DNA of 50,231 bases from Candidatus Aminicenantota bacterium (lineage in GTDB: Bacteria; Acidobacteriota; Aminicenantia; JAMOAD01), in contig JALVQI010000022.1 in NCBI GenBank assembly GCA_027031485.1, forward strand, positions 1 to 50,231. The letters are read 5' to 3'. This document shows, piece after piece, positions 4,195 to 10,001 of this stretch. The notes beneath the pieces are model-generated. The model was not told the origin of the DNA, ran no database searches, and saw nothing but the letters and a program-made list of their open reading frames with translations. Numbering within the stretch: the first letter of the stretch is position 1; each line of letters starts with the position of its first letter. Made by a program: the position numbers and the translations under genes.

Positions 4195-6201
4195 TTAGTT
4201 ATTAAGCTTTTTTATTAACCTTTTTAAAAACGGCTGGTGAGGATTAATTTTTAAAGATTTTCTAAAGTAAAATAGTGCTTTGTCCATTTGAACCAATTTA
4301 TTTAAATAAAAGACTCCAATCGCTTTTAATATAATGTAATTATTTCTATTGTTTTCATATATCTTTTTTATAATGCTCTCACCTTTCTCCTTTTCCTCTC
4401 CTCTGAAATAAATCTCTGCGATGGAAAAAAGTTCTGAAATTGAATATTCTTTATCTTTATGATTTTCAATCAGATTAATTGCTTTTTTATAATTTCCGCA
4501 TTTTGAATAATATTTTATCAGTTCTATTTCAGGTTGTGCATCTAATTTTTCCCTTAATAGCATTAGATTGTATATATTTATATTTTCCCTTTTTGCTAAT
4601 GTTTCAGCTTCCTTCCATTTATCAAAGCATATGTAGAGATTATAAAGTTTGTTTAAAAAATAACCTTTTTCGGAAAAAATACTTAGAGCTTTTTTAGCAA
4701 TTTTTTCCGCTTTTAAAAAATTACCTCTATACTTTGCTATATTAAATTTTATAGTGTAAATATCTTTTAAGCTTGGAAGTTCAACTCTTAATTTCTTCAC
4801 ACTGTCCAACCATTTCAATGCTTTATCATAATTGCATCTTTTCAACTCAATATTGGCATAAAGGATCCCTGTAAGCACCGCTGTAAATTCTTCCATTTTC
4901 AATTTCAAAGTCCTTTTTAAATAGGTTTCAGCCTCAATGTAGTTTGATTTAAGCAAAAGAGCTCTTGAATACTCTGCGTTTACAAAAGCTACGTTTGGCT
5001 GTTTTTTAACAATCTTCCCCCAGAATAAAACTTCGCTTTTATAAAAATATGAATTAAATATCACTGAAATACTGAAAATAATTACTATAAAAAGTACTAT
5101 CCACCCCCATGTCTTCTTTCTTAGTTTAAAGATAAAGAGAATAAGAATCCATAATATTCCTAAAAAAGGAATAATCATATATCTGGTTGATAGTGAGTAA
5201 GGGAAAAGATTGGAGAAAACAAAAACAAGATAGAGGGGGAAAAACACCAGTAAGAAAAGCAAAGGGACCATAAACTCTCTCTTTGATCTAATGGATAAAA
5301 GGATAAGAAAAGAAAAAAGGATAAGGAAAAGTATCCCCCATATAAAATAACCGACTTTTAGAACGCTCTCCGCTGAAACAAACATAATAAAATTCAGGGG
5401 TAAAATCATTGATTTAAAATAATAACCTATGGAACCCAGTAATAAGAGCAAATTTTTTACAAACGGATGAAATAAAGAAAATTTTACTCCTCCGACTCCA
5501 TTGACTTTAAATTTAACAAAAAAGAAAAAAAGTGTTGAAAGTATTATGGAGGATAAATAAAAAAAATGAATTTTCCTTTTTCTAACATAATTATACAAAA
5601 TAAAAAAGGGTAAGAAAAAAACAAAAGCTTCCTTTGAAAAAAGACCTGAAATAAAAAAAAGTATGGAAAAAACCGCATCCCTTTTTCTATTATTTTTTAT
5701 ATAGTATTCGAAGAATAGTAAGGAAAGAAAACCCCATAATAACATCAGAAGATCACAGCGCCCGACAATCCAGACAATATTATCTATATGCAAAGGATAA
5801 ACTGCAAAAAGCAATACAAATATTTCGGCGAAGAAGTCGTCTTTTCTGTGTTCCTTTAAGAAAAGAAAGAGAGGGATTAAAGAGAGATAAAATATTATAA
5901 GATTAACAATTCTAAAAGAAGAAGGATTTTCTCCAAAGAATTTTTTATTCAAAGCCAAAGTCATTATCGTAAATGGTCTGTAATAATCGTTTGCGCCTTT
6001 GTTAAAACCTGCACTCTGCCAATAACCATATTCAAAAGCTTTAAATGGGGATATCTTCTTATTGAGAAAAATATTGTTTGAAATCTGAATTTTTGAATCC
6101 CATATATAATCATAATTAAAAGTCCTGAAGTATAATGAGAAAAGAATAACAAACAGAATTAAGAAAAATAATATTAATCTTTTTTTCGCCACCTTATTCA
6201 T
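4195..6201 (-). CDS. Multi-pass membrane glycosyltransferase (GT-C/TMTC-like) with C-terminal TPR repeats
   Basis: NYDYIWDSKIQISNN...YYRPFTIMTLALN resembles the TMTC-type N-terminus (DD/YRP motifs); many TM helices then TPR-like helices. Confidence 0.65.
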   Translation of the reverse strand: MNKVAKKRLILFFLILFVILFSLYFRTFNYDYIWDSKIQISNNIFLNKKISPFKAFEYGYWQSAGFNKGANDYYRPFTIMTLALNKKFFGENPSSFRIVNLIIFYLSLIPLFLFLKEHRKDDFFAEIFVLLFAVYPLHIDNIVWIVGRCDLLMLLWGFLSLLFFEYYIKNNRKRDAVFSILFFISGLFSKEAFVFFLPFFILYNYVRKRKIHFFYLSSIILSTLFFFFVKFKVNGVGGVKFSLFHPFVKNLLLLLGSIGYYFKSMILPLNFIMFVSAESVLKVGYFIWGILFLILFSFLILLSIRSKREFMVPLLFLLVFFPLYLVFVFSNLFPYSLSTRYMIIPFLGILWILILFIFKLRKKTWGWIVLFIVIIFSISVIFNSYFYKSEVLFWGKIVKKQPNVAFVNAEYSRALLLKSNYIEAETYLKRTLKLKMEEFTAVLTGILYANIELKRCNYDKALKWLDSVKKLRVELPSLKDIYTIKFNIAKYRGNFLKAEKIAKKALSIFSEKGYFLNKLYNLYICFDKWKEAETLAKRENINIYNLMLLREKLDAQPEIELIKYYSKCGNYKKAINLIENHKDKEYSISELFSIAEIYFRGEEKEKGESIIKKIYENNRNNYIILKAIGVFYLNKLVQMDKALFYFRKSLKINPHQPFLKRLIKKLNN

Positions 6202-7951
6202 TAAATTTACCTATGATTATTTTTTCATATAAAGAACTGCTTTTAAATTTATAGTTAATTCTTTCCACTGAAATTTTCTTAATAACCTTAGCTATTAAAC
6301 TACTTTTATGGTATCTTTTCTCAAGAAAATAAACAACCTTTAAATTCATAAGTGCATCCATGTAAAAGGGTTCAATTGAGAGGGCTTCTAATATTTTAAA
6401 TCGAGCTTCATTAATTCTATTTGATTTCAGATATACTTTTCCCAAATGCAAAATCGCGATTGGATTTGCCGGATCTATCTTAACCCATTTCTTAGCATAA
6501 TAGATGGCTTTTTCATTTATAAATTTATTTTCACCGGTCTGATTATTTAAAAAATTATAAAAAGAAAAGGCTAAAATGGAATAAACCTCTTTCAATCTTT
6601 TATTTTGAATAAGAGCATTTTTCCCTATAATTTCAAGATAGTACAAATTTTTAATTGTAGGCTCTTCTTTCAGTTTTTCAAATGTTCTATTGAATTCAAT
6701 ATAGTTAACTCTATAATCAAAGGGTATGACTTTTTTCGCTGTATTTAACTTACCGGAATGTATGAGAATATCATTCAGATAAACAGGGATTGAAAAAAAA
6801 ATGAAATAAATCAAAAGAAAGGAGGTTATTAAATCTTTTCTTAAATACCTTTTTTCTGTGTGTTTTTTATAATCTTTTATTACTATTAAAGCCGGCAGGA
6901 GAAAAACATAGCTCAATGAAAAATTTTGAATTAATGAAAAAACGAAAAAAACAAGTAAAAGGTACCTGTTTTCATAATCCCTCTTTTTAAATGTTTTATA
7001 TAGAAAGAATAATAAATATAAGGAGACAATTAAGCCGATGATTCCGTATTCCGTAAAAAGCTTTATGAAAAGATTGTGTTCAAACCTGACTCTTTTAAAA
7101 TTATATACATTCAATTTTATCTTATTATTAAGATATTCTCCATAAAATTCAAGATTATCATTAATTTTTATCTTTTTTACGATTTTATATTGATCCGAAT
7201 AAAAGTTAAAATTAAATCCTCCCACTCCGAATGGCAAATTTTTTATCCCTGTCAATAAGGCGGTTTTCCAGATTTTAATTCTACTGCCGAAAAATGGTTC
7301 GTTTTTTACTGATTTATAAAAAAGCGGACTGAATATTAAGATTATCACAAAAATTATAGTGAAGGTATTTTTTTTATTCAGTTTGGTTTCGGAAAATAAA
7401 AAGTAAGTAATAAAGATAATAGCTGCAACAAAAGCTGTTTTGGAAAAGGTCAAAATAATTGAAAATAGGAAAATAAGAAAAAGAGCTCTGTTTTTTCTAA
7501 AAAATATAAGTCCCGAGATAAAAAGTAAGCCTAAGATTGAATTGTTTTTATATATAAAGGATAATTCTTTTTGATGTTTTATTAGTGAATAAGGAATAGC
7601 AATGAATGGCAGAATCAAAATAAGAAGTTTCAAAGATTTTAACTCAACAGAAGCAATATTGAAAAGAATTAAAAAGAGAATGAGTGATAAAAAAAGAAAA
7701 GGAGGGAATTTGGGATTGTAAAAAAACAGGAGTATGGAAAAAAGTGTAAAAATTGTTAATAAAAACAAATGAGTTTTATAATTAATGGCTCTTTCTTCTC
7801 TGCTTAATATTTGACCGACTGTTTTTATCCCTAAAATCATATCTATGAGAAAAATATAGTGATAGGAAGGTAAAAAATATAAGAATATCACTGTAAACCA
7901 AAGAAGAAGATCAAGATAATCTTTTTTCTTGAAGTTAGCTATTTCAATCAT
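6194..7951 (-). CDS. O-antigen ligase/polymerase (Wzy_C-like) membrane protein with TPR C-terminus
   Basis: About 12 hydrophobic segments; GVGGFNFNFY and FEHNLFIKLFTEYGIIGLIV motifs; TPR-like tail LHLGKVYLKSNRINEARFKILEALSIEP; 8-bp overlap with the next gene. Confidence 0.7.
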   Translation of the reverse strand: MIEIANFKKKDYLDLLLWFTVIFLYFLPSYHYIFLIDMILGIKTVGQILSREERAINYKTHLFLLTIFTLFSILLFFYNPKFPPFLFLSLILFLILFNIASVELKSLKLLILILPFIAIPYSLIKHQKELSFIYKNNSILGLLFISGLIFFRKNRALFLIFLFSIILTFSKTAFVAAIIFITYFLFSETKLNKKNTFTIIFVIILIFSPLFYKSVKNEPFFGSRIKIWKTALLTGIKNLPFGVGGFNFNFYSDQYKIVKKIKINDNLEFYGEYLNNKIKLNVYNFKRVRFEHNLFIKLFTEYGIIGLIVSLYLLFFLYKTFKKRDYENRYLLLVFFVFSLIQNFSLSYVFLLPALIVIKDYKKHTEKRYLRKDLITSFLLIYFIFFSIPVYLNDILIHSGKLNTAKKVIPFDYRVNYIEFNRTFEKLKEEPTIKNLYYLEIIGKNALIQNKRLKEVYSILAFSFYNFLNNQTGENKFINEKAIYYAKKWVKIDPANPIAILHLGKVYLKSNRINEARFKILEALSIEPFYMDALMNLKVVYFLEKRYHKSSLIAKVIKKISVERINYKFKSSSLYEKIIIGKFNE

Positions 7952-9545
7952 CTTTTCTCTGTTTTTTCTTCATATTTTACAAAGTAATGATTATTTTTAT
8001 ACTTAATTTTAACATAATTAATTGTTGAAAGAATTTCATAAATATCTCCCTTTTGCTCTGCTATTACCAATCTTAATTTGTGTGTCGTTAATGATATGGG
8101 ATCCATACTTTCAAGTTCCTTAAAAGCAGCTTCGGCTTTTTTTCTTTTCCCTTTGCTTAAATAATAGGAAATGATAATTGTTTTCGCAGTCGGGTTAAAT
8201 GAAATTATTTCTGATGCTTTTAAGGCATAGTTAAAGCTCTTTTCCTTATCAACATTCCAGAAAAGTTTGGCATTTCGTGCTTTATAATCAGAATAAAACA
8301 CAGGGATGGAAAGCAACAGAATAACAGCTATCATTAGTTTACCTTTTTTATTCAGCTCCTTTTTACTTATTCCGGAATTTTTAACAAGAAATCCCATTAT
8401 AAAGGAAAAAAGTATACCAATAGAAGGAAAATACACTCCTATGTCTATCAAATTGTAAGATATCAACACGAAAAGGGATGAGATCAAGGCAATATTCAAA
8501 GGTGTTTTTTCTATTTTCTTTAAAAGTTTGATAAGAGATATCGTTAAAATAATTAAAAATAAAATCCCTACGGACCCCAACTCTGCTATCACCTGCAATA
8601 TAAAGTTGTGTGCATATTTGGAATGCGGTTCTGAATAAAGGGAGAAAAAATTTGAATATGGTCCGAAATTACCCGGCCCCACTCCATAAAAAGGGGAACT
8701 CAGAAATTCTTTAATAGCTACTATCCAGTGAAAACTCCTGAGACGAAGAGGAGTTAAACTCAATAAATCCTGACCTCTAAAAAAAGAAATTAAGGAGCCA
8801 ATTGAAAGTACTATGAAAAAGAGTGAGACACTGATGATCTCCCTGATTTTTTTATCCATTGGAAGATATAAAAAAAGTGCAATGAAAATGGCTGTGAAAC
8901 CTATCAAAATTCCGAATGATTTGCTCAAAATTAAAGCAAGTAAAACGATAATTGTCAAGGGAACAGAAATACTGTATTTTACTTTCTTTTTGTAGATAAA
9001 ATAAATGAAAACGGGAAATATCGCCAGAACAAAGAAAGAAAACTCTGTTGGTAGAGGAAAAAAGGATTTCAGCCTGTGGTATTTAACTTGATTCCAGAAA
9101 ACCGAGCCAAAATTAATATCCTTTTCTGCCAATTTTTTTAGGTATTTAACATTTTTTGGAAAAATAAAAAACATATGAAAAAGAGAGAAAAATATGTGAA
9201 AAAATAGGACAGAAAGCAGTGATTTTAGTAAAAAATCCTCATTTATGTCAAAAGATATGAAAATAATTGACAATATGAAAATAAGAATAAAATAAAAGAG
9301 AAAATAAATCGGTTGAAATACGGGTTTATATATGAATATAAAAGGAATTAATGGGATAAAAAAAAAATAGTGCCTGATTCAGGAATTTTGATCTCTTTTT
9401 TATAAAACAAGAAAAGAATTAAAATTAAAACAGTTGAGATTAACAATTCCTCATATAATTCCAGTGTGAAAAAAAGAGGAAAGATATAAAGACTAAAAAA
9501 AAAGAGGGAAAGGATAAACCTTTCCCTCTTCATATTTTTCAGCAT
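7948..9545 (-). CDS. O-antigen ligase/polymerase (Wzy_C-like), N-terminal 65 codons (9348-9545) separated from the rest (7948-9273 ORF) by a frame change at a 10-nt homopolymer
   Basis: ORF MLKNMKRERFILSLFFF...PESGTIFFLSH* stops just after poly-T; the -1 frame continues without a stop (..FFFIPLIPFIFIYKPVFQPIYFLFYF..) into the 441-aa ORF with GVGPGNFGPYSN...HNFILQVIAELGSVGIL motifs. Confidence 0.7.
9358..9367. repeat. Homopolymer A10 (T10 in coding strand) inside the O-antigen ligase gene
   Basis: Counted directly: GGGAT-AAAAAAAAAA-TAG. Confidence 0.95.
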
Positions 9546-9548
9546 AGA

Positions 9549-10001
9549 TTAATGTTGTCTTGGTGCGTATGTGAATGATCCACTTGAATAAACAAGGTCT
9601 CTTCTGAAATCGTCTTTGGATGTGGGAGGATCATAAAGAGTTCCCTGTCCATCATGCCAATCAAAGACAGTGTCTTTACCAGAAGAACCAACTGAATACT
9701 CATCTGCGGTTGCTTTGTAATGATAAGCATGGTTCCATTGATCTGTTTCAGCATATTTCTTTGTGTAAAAAGGCTGTAAATAGGTTCTAATTGCAGTCGC
9801 ACTGGATCCCTGAACAGCGATACCCCAGTCACTCATATAATTATCAACTGCCATTCCGATGTTTCTCATATCTTCCATTGTTGATTTAAGTTTTGCTTTC
9901 TGAATTGCAGTTAATAGGTTGGGGGTCATAATCATGGCAAGAATAGCAATGATAGCGACAACGATCATCAACTCAATAAGTGAAAATCCTTTTTTTCTCA
10001 T
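9549..10001 (-). CDS. Type IV pilin / GspG-like major pilin
   Basis: Prepilin leader MRKKG|FSLIELMIVVAIIAILAMIMTPNL with Glu5; C-terminal DQWNHAYHYKAT..EYSVGSSGKD pseudopilin-like region. Confidence 0.9.
   Translation of the reverse strand: MRKKGFSLIELMIVVAIIAILAMIMTPNLLTAIQKAKLKSTMEDMRNIGMAVDNYMSDWGIAVQGSSATAIRTYLQPFYTKKYAETDQWNHAYHYKATADEYSVGSSGKDTVFDWHDGQGTLYDPPTSKDDFRRDLVYSSGSFTYAPRQH

Follow-up and report, generated by a model that had tools for sequence, protein, structure and literature searches.

A conserved one-base break at a T10 tract in a transferase gene behind a pilin gene of Candidatus Aminicenantota, probably bridged by RNA polymerase slippage

The window, a stretch of 50,231 nucleotides from Candidatus Aminicenantota bacterium (JALVQI010000022.1), carries on its minus strand a pilin gene followed by the gene of a Wzy_C membrane enzyme that is split by a homopolymer. 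The pilin (9549..10001, minus strand) is T2SSG-like and has the N-methylation motif, and is the probable acceptor and partner of the enzyme. Its stop codon (9549-9551) is followed by TCT and then by the ATG, at 9545 on the minus strand, of a 65-aa reading frame (ORF1, 9348..9545, minus strand; the 0 frame), which contains the N-terminal part of the enzyme with TM1, TM2 and the start of TM3. ORF1 runs through ten consecutive T (T10 at 9358..9367 on the minus strand, A10 on the plus strand; our proposed slippage site), reading ..GGC ACT ATT TTT TTT TTA TCC CAT TAA, and stops three codons past the tract; the heptamer U UUU UUA lies inside the tract in the ORF1 frame. The -1 frame (FFF-IPLIPFIFIYKP..) is open from just upstream of T10 into a 441-aa Wzy_C ORF, and this ORF2 (7948..9357, minus strand) encodes the remainder of the Wzy_C/WaaL-like enzyme. 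The original prediction that T10 splits a ligase/polymerase gene with an open -1 frame was borne out, with its coordinates and frame arithmetic right, and the restored protein that it had put at ~530 aa comes to 532 aa when ORF1 and ORF2 are joined. What it had missed is that the ORF1 start sits within the intrinsic terminator of the pilin gene, which has a T9 of its own. ORF2 contains no ATG, GTG or TTG from T10 down to a TTG at 9273. At its other end it overlaps by 4 nt the gene of a second Wzy_C protein with TPRs (6194..7951, minus strand), which is in turn overlapped by the gene of a membrane protein with C-terminal TPRs (4195..6201, minus strand). Runs of at least ten T or A are rare in this genome (2.97 Mb), with 19 distinct places against 141 runs of exactly nine.

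ORF2 matches PF04932 (Wzy_C) with an E-value of 9e-14 and 51.9 bits against a gathering score of 31.7, which makes the predicted 'O-antigen ligase/polymerase' correct at the superfamily level. No match to PglL_A (PF15864) was found in the ORF2 product at E 0.1, NCBIfam gave no match for ORF2, and a sequence search of solved structures returned TPR-type matches only among the 60 matches listed. The product appears to be a functional transferase of the WaaL/PglL superfamily and probably a pilin O-oligosaccharyltransferase, a role suggested by the fact that the gene adjoins the pilin gene. The PglL/TfpO pilin O-oligosaccharyltransferases are likewise Wzy_C membrane enzymes encoded directly 3' of a pilin gene, and 21 of 31 pglL homologues adjoin pilin genes or lie in their vicinity (PMC3643930). 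Unlike these, the gene described here lacks the PglL-specific Pfam domain, has a C-terminal extension (TPR in the homologue at locus L004) and combines a nested terminator with a T10 break. Since the PglL_A domain was not found, the pilin is a putative glycan acceptor only.

In other families of the class, too, a pilin gene precedes the Wzy_C gene, which there is one ORF, with the pilin directly upstream at loci L004, L005, L010 and L011. The joined proteins of the window genome and of two relatives, G002 and G004, align end to end with the single-ORF homologues and show no discontinuity at the tract (KKEIKIPESG-TIFFF/IPLIPF at the junction, against KKEILIPKFS-EAFLF/FSLIIF in a single-ORF homologue), and ORF1 of the window aligns to the N-terminus of the intact homologue at L004. 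The predicted structure of this homologue has a mean pLDDT of 76.8, with low confidence for the first 80 residues, and puts the junction close to the beginning of helix three. Among PDB entries the model matches WaaL (7tpg) best, with an E-value of 2.3e-4 and a probability of 1.00 but a TM-score of 0.37 by query and 0.48 by target. Judged from the model, ORF2 alone would be without TM1, TM2 and a proper start.

A protein similarity search of 40 relatives, in which relatives of this gene (wzy) were found by protein and not by tract, identified close orthologues in G002 (same genus, 60% amino acid identity) and G004 (same family but another genus, 50%). Their records, JAMOVU010000036.1 and JAMOUT010000046.1, are both labelled 'Candidatus Aminicenantes bacterium' and both come from sample PIR-30. 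In both genomes the pilin is the same and an ATG follows it at the same short distance; both have an ORF1 of 64 or 66 codons with the N-terminus MLKN(M/I)KRERIILSLFFF, exactly T10 (L002:1404-1413 and L003:2896-2905) and ORF2 at -1; identity to ORF1 of the window is 72% in G002 and 60% in G004. As the identical break is found in two other species, it is more than chance. The wzy comparison covers these three species; the wzy/pilin region of a third and close relative, G001, is an assembly gap, and the contigs of a fourth, G003, end inside the pilin. In G003, the ends of contigs C182 and C288 (L046 and L050) carry an identical pilin N-terminus, and this genome has several copies of the pilin, each lying opposite the gene of a membrane protein.

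Purifying selection acts on both sides of the break in the three species, with pN/pS values of 0.40-0.48 for ORF1 and 0.33-0.45 for the whole of ORF2, fairly close to the 0.24-0.33 of the neighbouring pilin. Synonymous divergence of ORF2 among the three species is strong, at or near saturation, and the break is therefore old. These values for ORF2 and the pilin, together with synonymous sites that are strongly diverged to saturated, speak against a recent pseudogene, and the same T10 with the same -1 offset in three diverged species disfavours the sequence error that had been offered as one explanation of the split. There is no ORF2 start codon common to the three: the possible starts are the TTG at 9273 in the window, an ATG 60 codons past the tract as the first in G002, and a TTG before the tract in G004. 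The stretch from the tract to the start is conserved in the ORF2 frame, with a pN/pS of 0.29-0.38 (alignment LIPF.F.YKP.F....YF).

The pilin intrinsic terminator is predicted at 9495..9531 (minus strand), with a 13-bp stem and T9, and it is nested in the downstream gene such that codons 5-17 of ORF1 are its 5' arm, loop, 3' arm and T9. The minimum free energy of the surrounding 76-nt stretch is -27.2 kcal/mol (z -6.5), and the corresponding values are -27.8 in G002 and -24.8 in G004. In other families, nine or ten loci (L005-L009, L013, L015-L017, L019) have the pilin terminator within the opening codons of the Wzy_C ORF, as in AAGCGGCTGGAA...TTCCAGCCGCTTTTTTTTT, which corresponds to KSGWKLIPAAFFLL; at L011 and L012 the pilin terminator stands just before the Wzy_C ORF, and the Wzy_C start showed no terminator of this kind with a T run at L004, L010, L014 and L018. 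A pilin terminator nested in frame in the downstream gene is a feature that recurs across several families of the class, and partial termination at this site may set the ratio of pilin to enzyme. At L015 and L016, no ATG, GTG or TTG is present upstream of the nested terminator in the Wzy_C frame.

Four of the 19 places with runs of at least ten in the window genome are broken genes, namely wzy, lolA, a TPR gene and a GT4 gene. The lolA gene (LolA family, PF03548, E 2e-10) lies behind a response regulator, the TPR gene, whose product is a secreted protein reading MKHKKKVFF/FILILSFTSLFAQQ across the break, lies behind a histidine kinase, and the GT4 glycosyltransferase gene is broken at A10 both here and in G001. 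A lolA gene was identified in four genomes, each time with T10; the tract puts the gene out of frame in the window genome and G002, while it is in frame in G003 and G004. For the TPR gene, the break falls at T10 in the window genome, G001 and G004 and at A9, with no T10, in G002. G003 has the TPR gene without a tract, as one continuous frame whose ATG is again the one that overlaps the stop of the kinase gene, and the start codon is supported because this unbroken orthologue uses it. Stop-codon read-through from the in-frame upstream kinase was considered for the TPR gene and rejected, as the orthologue in G003 begins at this overlapping ATG. The window genome and G001, which are 86-87% identical in DNA over the aligned stretches, have the same T10 and A10 in two genes; between them pN/pS is 0.09 downstream of the break in the TPR gene, and 0.19 upstream and 0.24 downstream of the break in the GT4 gene.

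G003 has 57% GC in the fetched stretches and three T10 runs in its whole genome, one in lolA, one in frame in an ftsE-like gene and one in the broken gene of a membrane-anchored protein, which needs +1 (L152 501-510, plus strand; MKRPSKPLLLAAFFF/ILVVALIGWQKFF). In this last gene the break comes directly after the start of the N-terminal anchor, and the protein has no Pfam or NCBIfam match. For lolA of G003, the probability that T10 would arise at the site by synonymous choice is ~0.001 (G003 codon usage, a small sample), so that what is kept there seems to be the run itself. Among lolA matches in other families (143 genomes of the class), none showed a tract of at least nine at the beginning of the gene, insofar as its start could be located, and the lolA tract therefore looks specific to the family of the window genome. 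The T10 of the ftsE-like gene (L154 1501-1510, minus strand) is in frame even though the preferred Phe codon in this genome is TTC. We also observed that lolA of G003, which lies behind a response regulator in this 57% GC genome, has a terminator-like hairpin followed by T10 nested in frame in its start (ATGAACCCCCCAAGGGGGC-T10; L150 1501-1510, minus strand).

Could the two halves be made separately? ORF2 might re-initiate at a rare AUU or AUC overlapping the ORF1 stop UAA and the parts assemble into a two-polypeptide enzyme, and the ORF2 codon over the ORF1 stop is indeed ATT, ATT and ATC in the three species. However, AUU and AUC are very weak start codons, the homologues elsewhere are one chain, and the same solution would strip the signal peptide from the TPR and lolA products and deprive the GT4 product of the start of its first domain; we give this arrangement hardly any credence.

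The relation between tract length and breakage was surveyed in the stretches around tracts in five genomes (that of the window and G001-G004), all of them draft assemblies. The ratio of broken to intact genes is 0:134 for tracts of eight, 1:25 for tracts of nine and 11:18 for tracts of ten in the curated list (Fisher p 2e-9). A strict automatic filter gives 6 broken against 18 intact at ten bases (p 3e-6), the curated list adding cases with a nearby start codon that the filter missed. The 11 broken tracts belong to wzy (window genome, G002, G004), lolA (window genome, G002), the TPR gene (window genome, G001, G004), the GT4 gene (window genome, G001) and the anchored protein of G003, and the same T10/A10 rule appears to hold in at least four genes of this bacterial family besides wzy. 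The A9 break in the TPR gene of G002 also needs +1. All 11 need +1 and never -1 (p 0.001 when counted singly, 0.06 by gene family), a direction that matches the prevalence of insertions among transcription indels at A/T runs, which rises with length (PMC5574713). In the flanking stretches of the window genome, runs of 7, 8 and 9 number 182, 73 and 9, declining by a factor of ~0.4-0.5 per base up to 8 and then dropping eight-fold from 8 to 9, with coding and non-coding sequence pooled; Baranov et al. took a fall of this kind, measured in coding sequence, to indicate selection against slippage (PMC1088944).

The same fusion could be obtained from an unaltered mRNA by programmed -1 ribosomal frameshifting, with a slip on U UUU UUA or U UUU UUC within U10. 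All 11 broken tracts need exactly this -1 shift, and a canonical heptamer (U UUU UUA, U UUU UUC, U UUU UUU or A AAA AAA) is present at every site. The heptamer takes up only seven bases, though, and yet the breaks cluster at ten (1/26 at nine, 0/134 at eight); moreover, neither a structure downstream nor a Shine-Dalgarno-like stimulator upstream was found to be conserved, the hairpins being weak and different among the species. A stimulator can be missing in frameshifting of low efficiency, and we consider the ribosomal explanation unlikely. A hairpin upstream of T10 (CCTG-AAT-CAGG) was examined as a stimulator and rejected, as it occurs in the window genome only.

It is also apparent that one more T or A would mend every broken tract, as expected if the true tract were T11 with one T lost in sequencing or assembly and the genes were ordinary and intact; all the compared genomes are draft assemblies, and G002 and G004 come from the one sample PIR-30. 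Against such an artefact stand the eighteen intact tracts of ten and the in-frame runs of 12, 13 and 19 in the same genome set, the TPR gene of G002, which is broken with only A9, and the agreement of the window genome and G001 on T10 and A10 in two genes in spite of a DNA identity of 86-87%. We judge it improbable. In G004, two similar sequences at contig ends differ in their run, one having A11 at the end of its contig and the other A10 (L082, end of C22, and L093, start of C96), either as a variant or as an assembly effect.

A surface-glycan gene with a long homopolymer close to its 5' end suggested phase variation to the original prediction, and A/T tracts at gene 5' ends are known switches (PMC2831843); the tract would then be a contingency switch seen in its OFF state. 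The length of ten in 3/3 wzy and 4/4 lolA orthologues, which were found by protein similarity, and the constant +1 direction in 11 of 11 broken tracts tell against this, and neither a T8 nor a T11 variant occurs among the three wzy orthologues. On/off switching would also make little sense for LolA, a housekeeping-type lipoprotein carrier, and phase variation is in our estimate very improbable.

Transcriptional slippage, which the original prediction had listed last, is the best supported of its options, given the conserved T10, the two-sided selection, the length rule and the uniform +1. We propose, with a probability of roughly two in three, that a functional transferase is kept one base out of frame at T10 and is bridged by slippage of RNA polymerase. 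Transcription from the pilin promoter would mostly stop at the terminator nested in ORF1, leaving pilin in excess. In polymerases that read through and reach T10, the all rU:dA hybrid would slip backward and one U would be added in a fraction of the transcripts; only these +1 transcripts would encode the 532-aa enzyme, the others giving the 65-aa stub. A run of ten is about the length of the RNA:DNA hybrid in RNA polymerase, which fits backward slippage. In keeping with productive transcriptional slippage, an A/T run of at least ~9 joins two overlapping ORFs, the downstream ORF has single-ORF homologues and evolves under purifying selection, and the same ORF organisation and tract occur in non-identical homologues, the last being a criterion taken from PMC1088944. 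Two observations count against the proposal in other genes: the lolA tract is in frame in G003 and G004, where slippage is not needed, and the TPR gene of G002 is broken at A9 without any T10.

In the insect endosymbionts Buchnera and Blochmannia, genes that show no decay are known to carry conserved one-base breaks in long A/T runs, some of these breaks being conserved between species; the frameshifts are rescued by slippage (PMC5009743, PMC3017870), and RNA polymerase slippage corrects 12-50% of transcripts (PMC5009743). The genomes studied here differ from these in being 2.2-3.0 Mb in size, with one relative at 57% GC in the fetched stretches, and in having tracts of length ten, always requiring +1 and placed early in mostly envelope-related genes, all known from DNA alone. 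In Shigella mxiE/spa13, Thermus dnaX and IS elements, an A/T run of ~9-10 likewise joins two ORFs in an organisation conserved among homologues (PMC1088944, PMC5009743), and of seven conserved slippage cases in a 2005 survey six were IS elements (PMC1088944), whereas here several chromosomal, apparently non-mobile genes of one bacterial family are concerned. G001 has, at a contig end, a dnaX-like gene, assigned by sequence, with A10 at about codon 400 (L162 1502-1511, plus strand; compare the slippage in Thermus dnaX). The switches at 5' homopolymeric tracts share with our genes a 5'-end A/T tract whose length sets the frame (PMC2831843), but in wzy and lolA there is no length variation between species and the +1 offset is constant. 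Among the papers searched, none mentions both transcriptional slippage and Aminicenantes. What is new here is the occurrence in several chromosomal, mostly envelope-related genes, within one family of a candidate phylum, at length ten and with a constant direction.

Taken further, the pilin transferase, lolA, the secreted TPR protein, the GT4 glycosyltransferase and the membrane-anchored protein may form a group of mostly envelope genes held at a fixed T10 or A10, in which slippage, and not promoter strength, would set a constant low fraction of full-length product; we offer this as a tentative and rather doubtful extension. If true, such a group would exist in a lineage that is not known to be endosymbiotic. 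The lolA gene, with its T10 in frame in some genomes and out of frame in others at the same site, provides a natural series for the effect of slippage on expression. Annotation pipelines will label genes of this kind as pseudogenes. Most conserved genes known to depend on slippage belong to insertion elements, a virulence plasmid or the shrunken genomes of endosymbionts, and a conserved set in an uncultured phylum with larger genomes, one of them at 57% GC, suggests that genes can be stably kept functional while out of frame at a poly-T tract.
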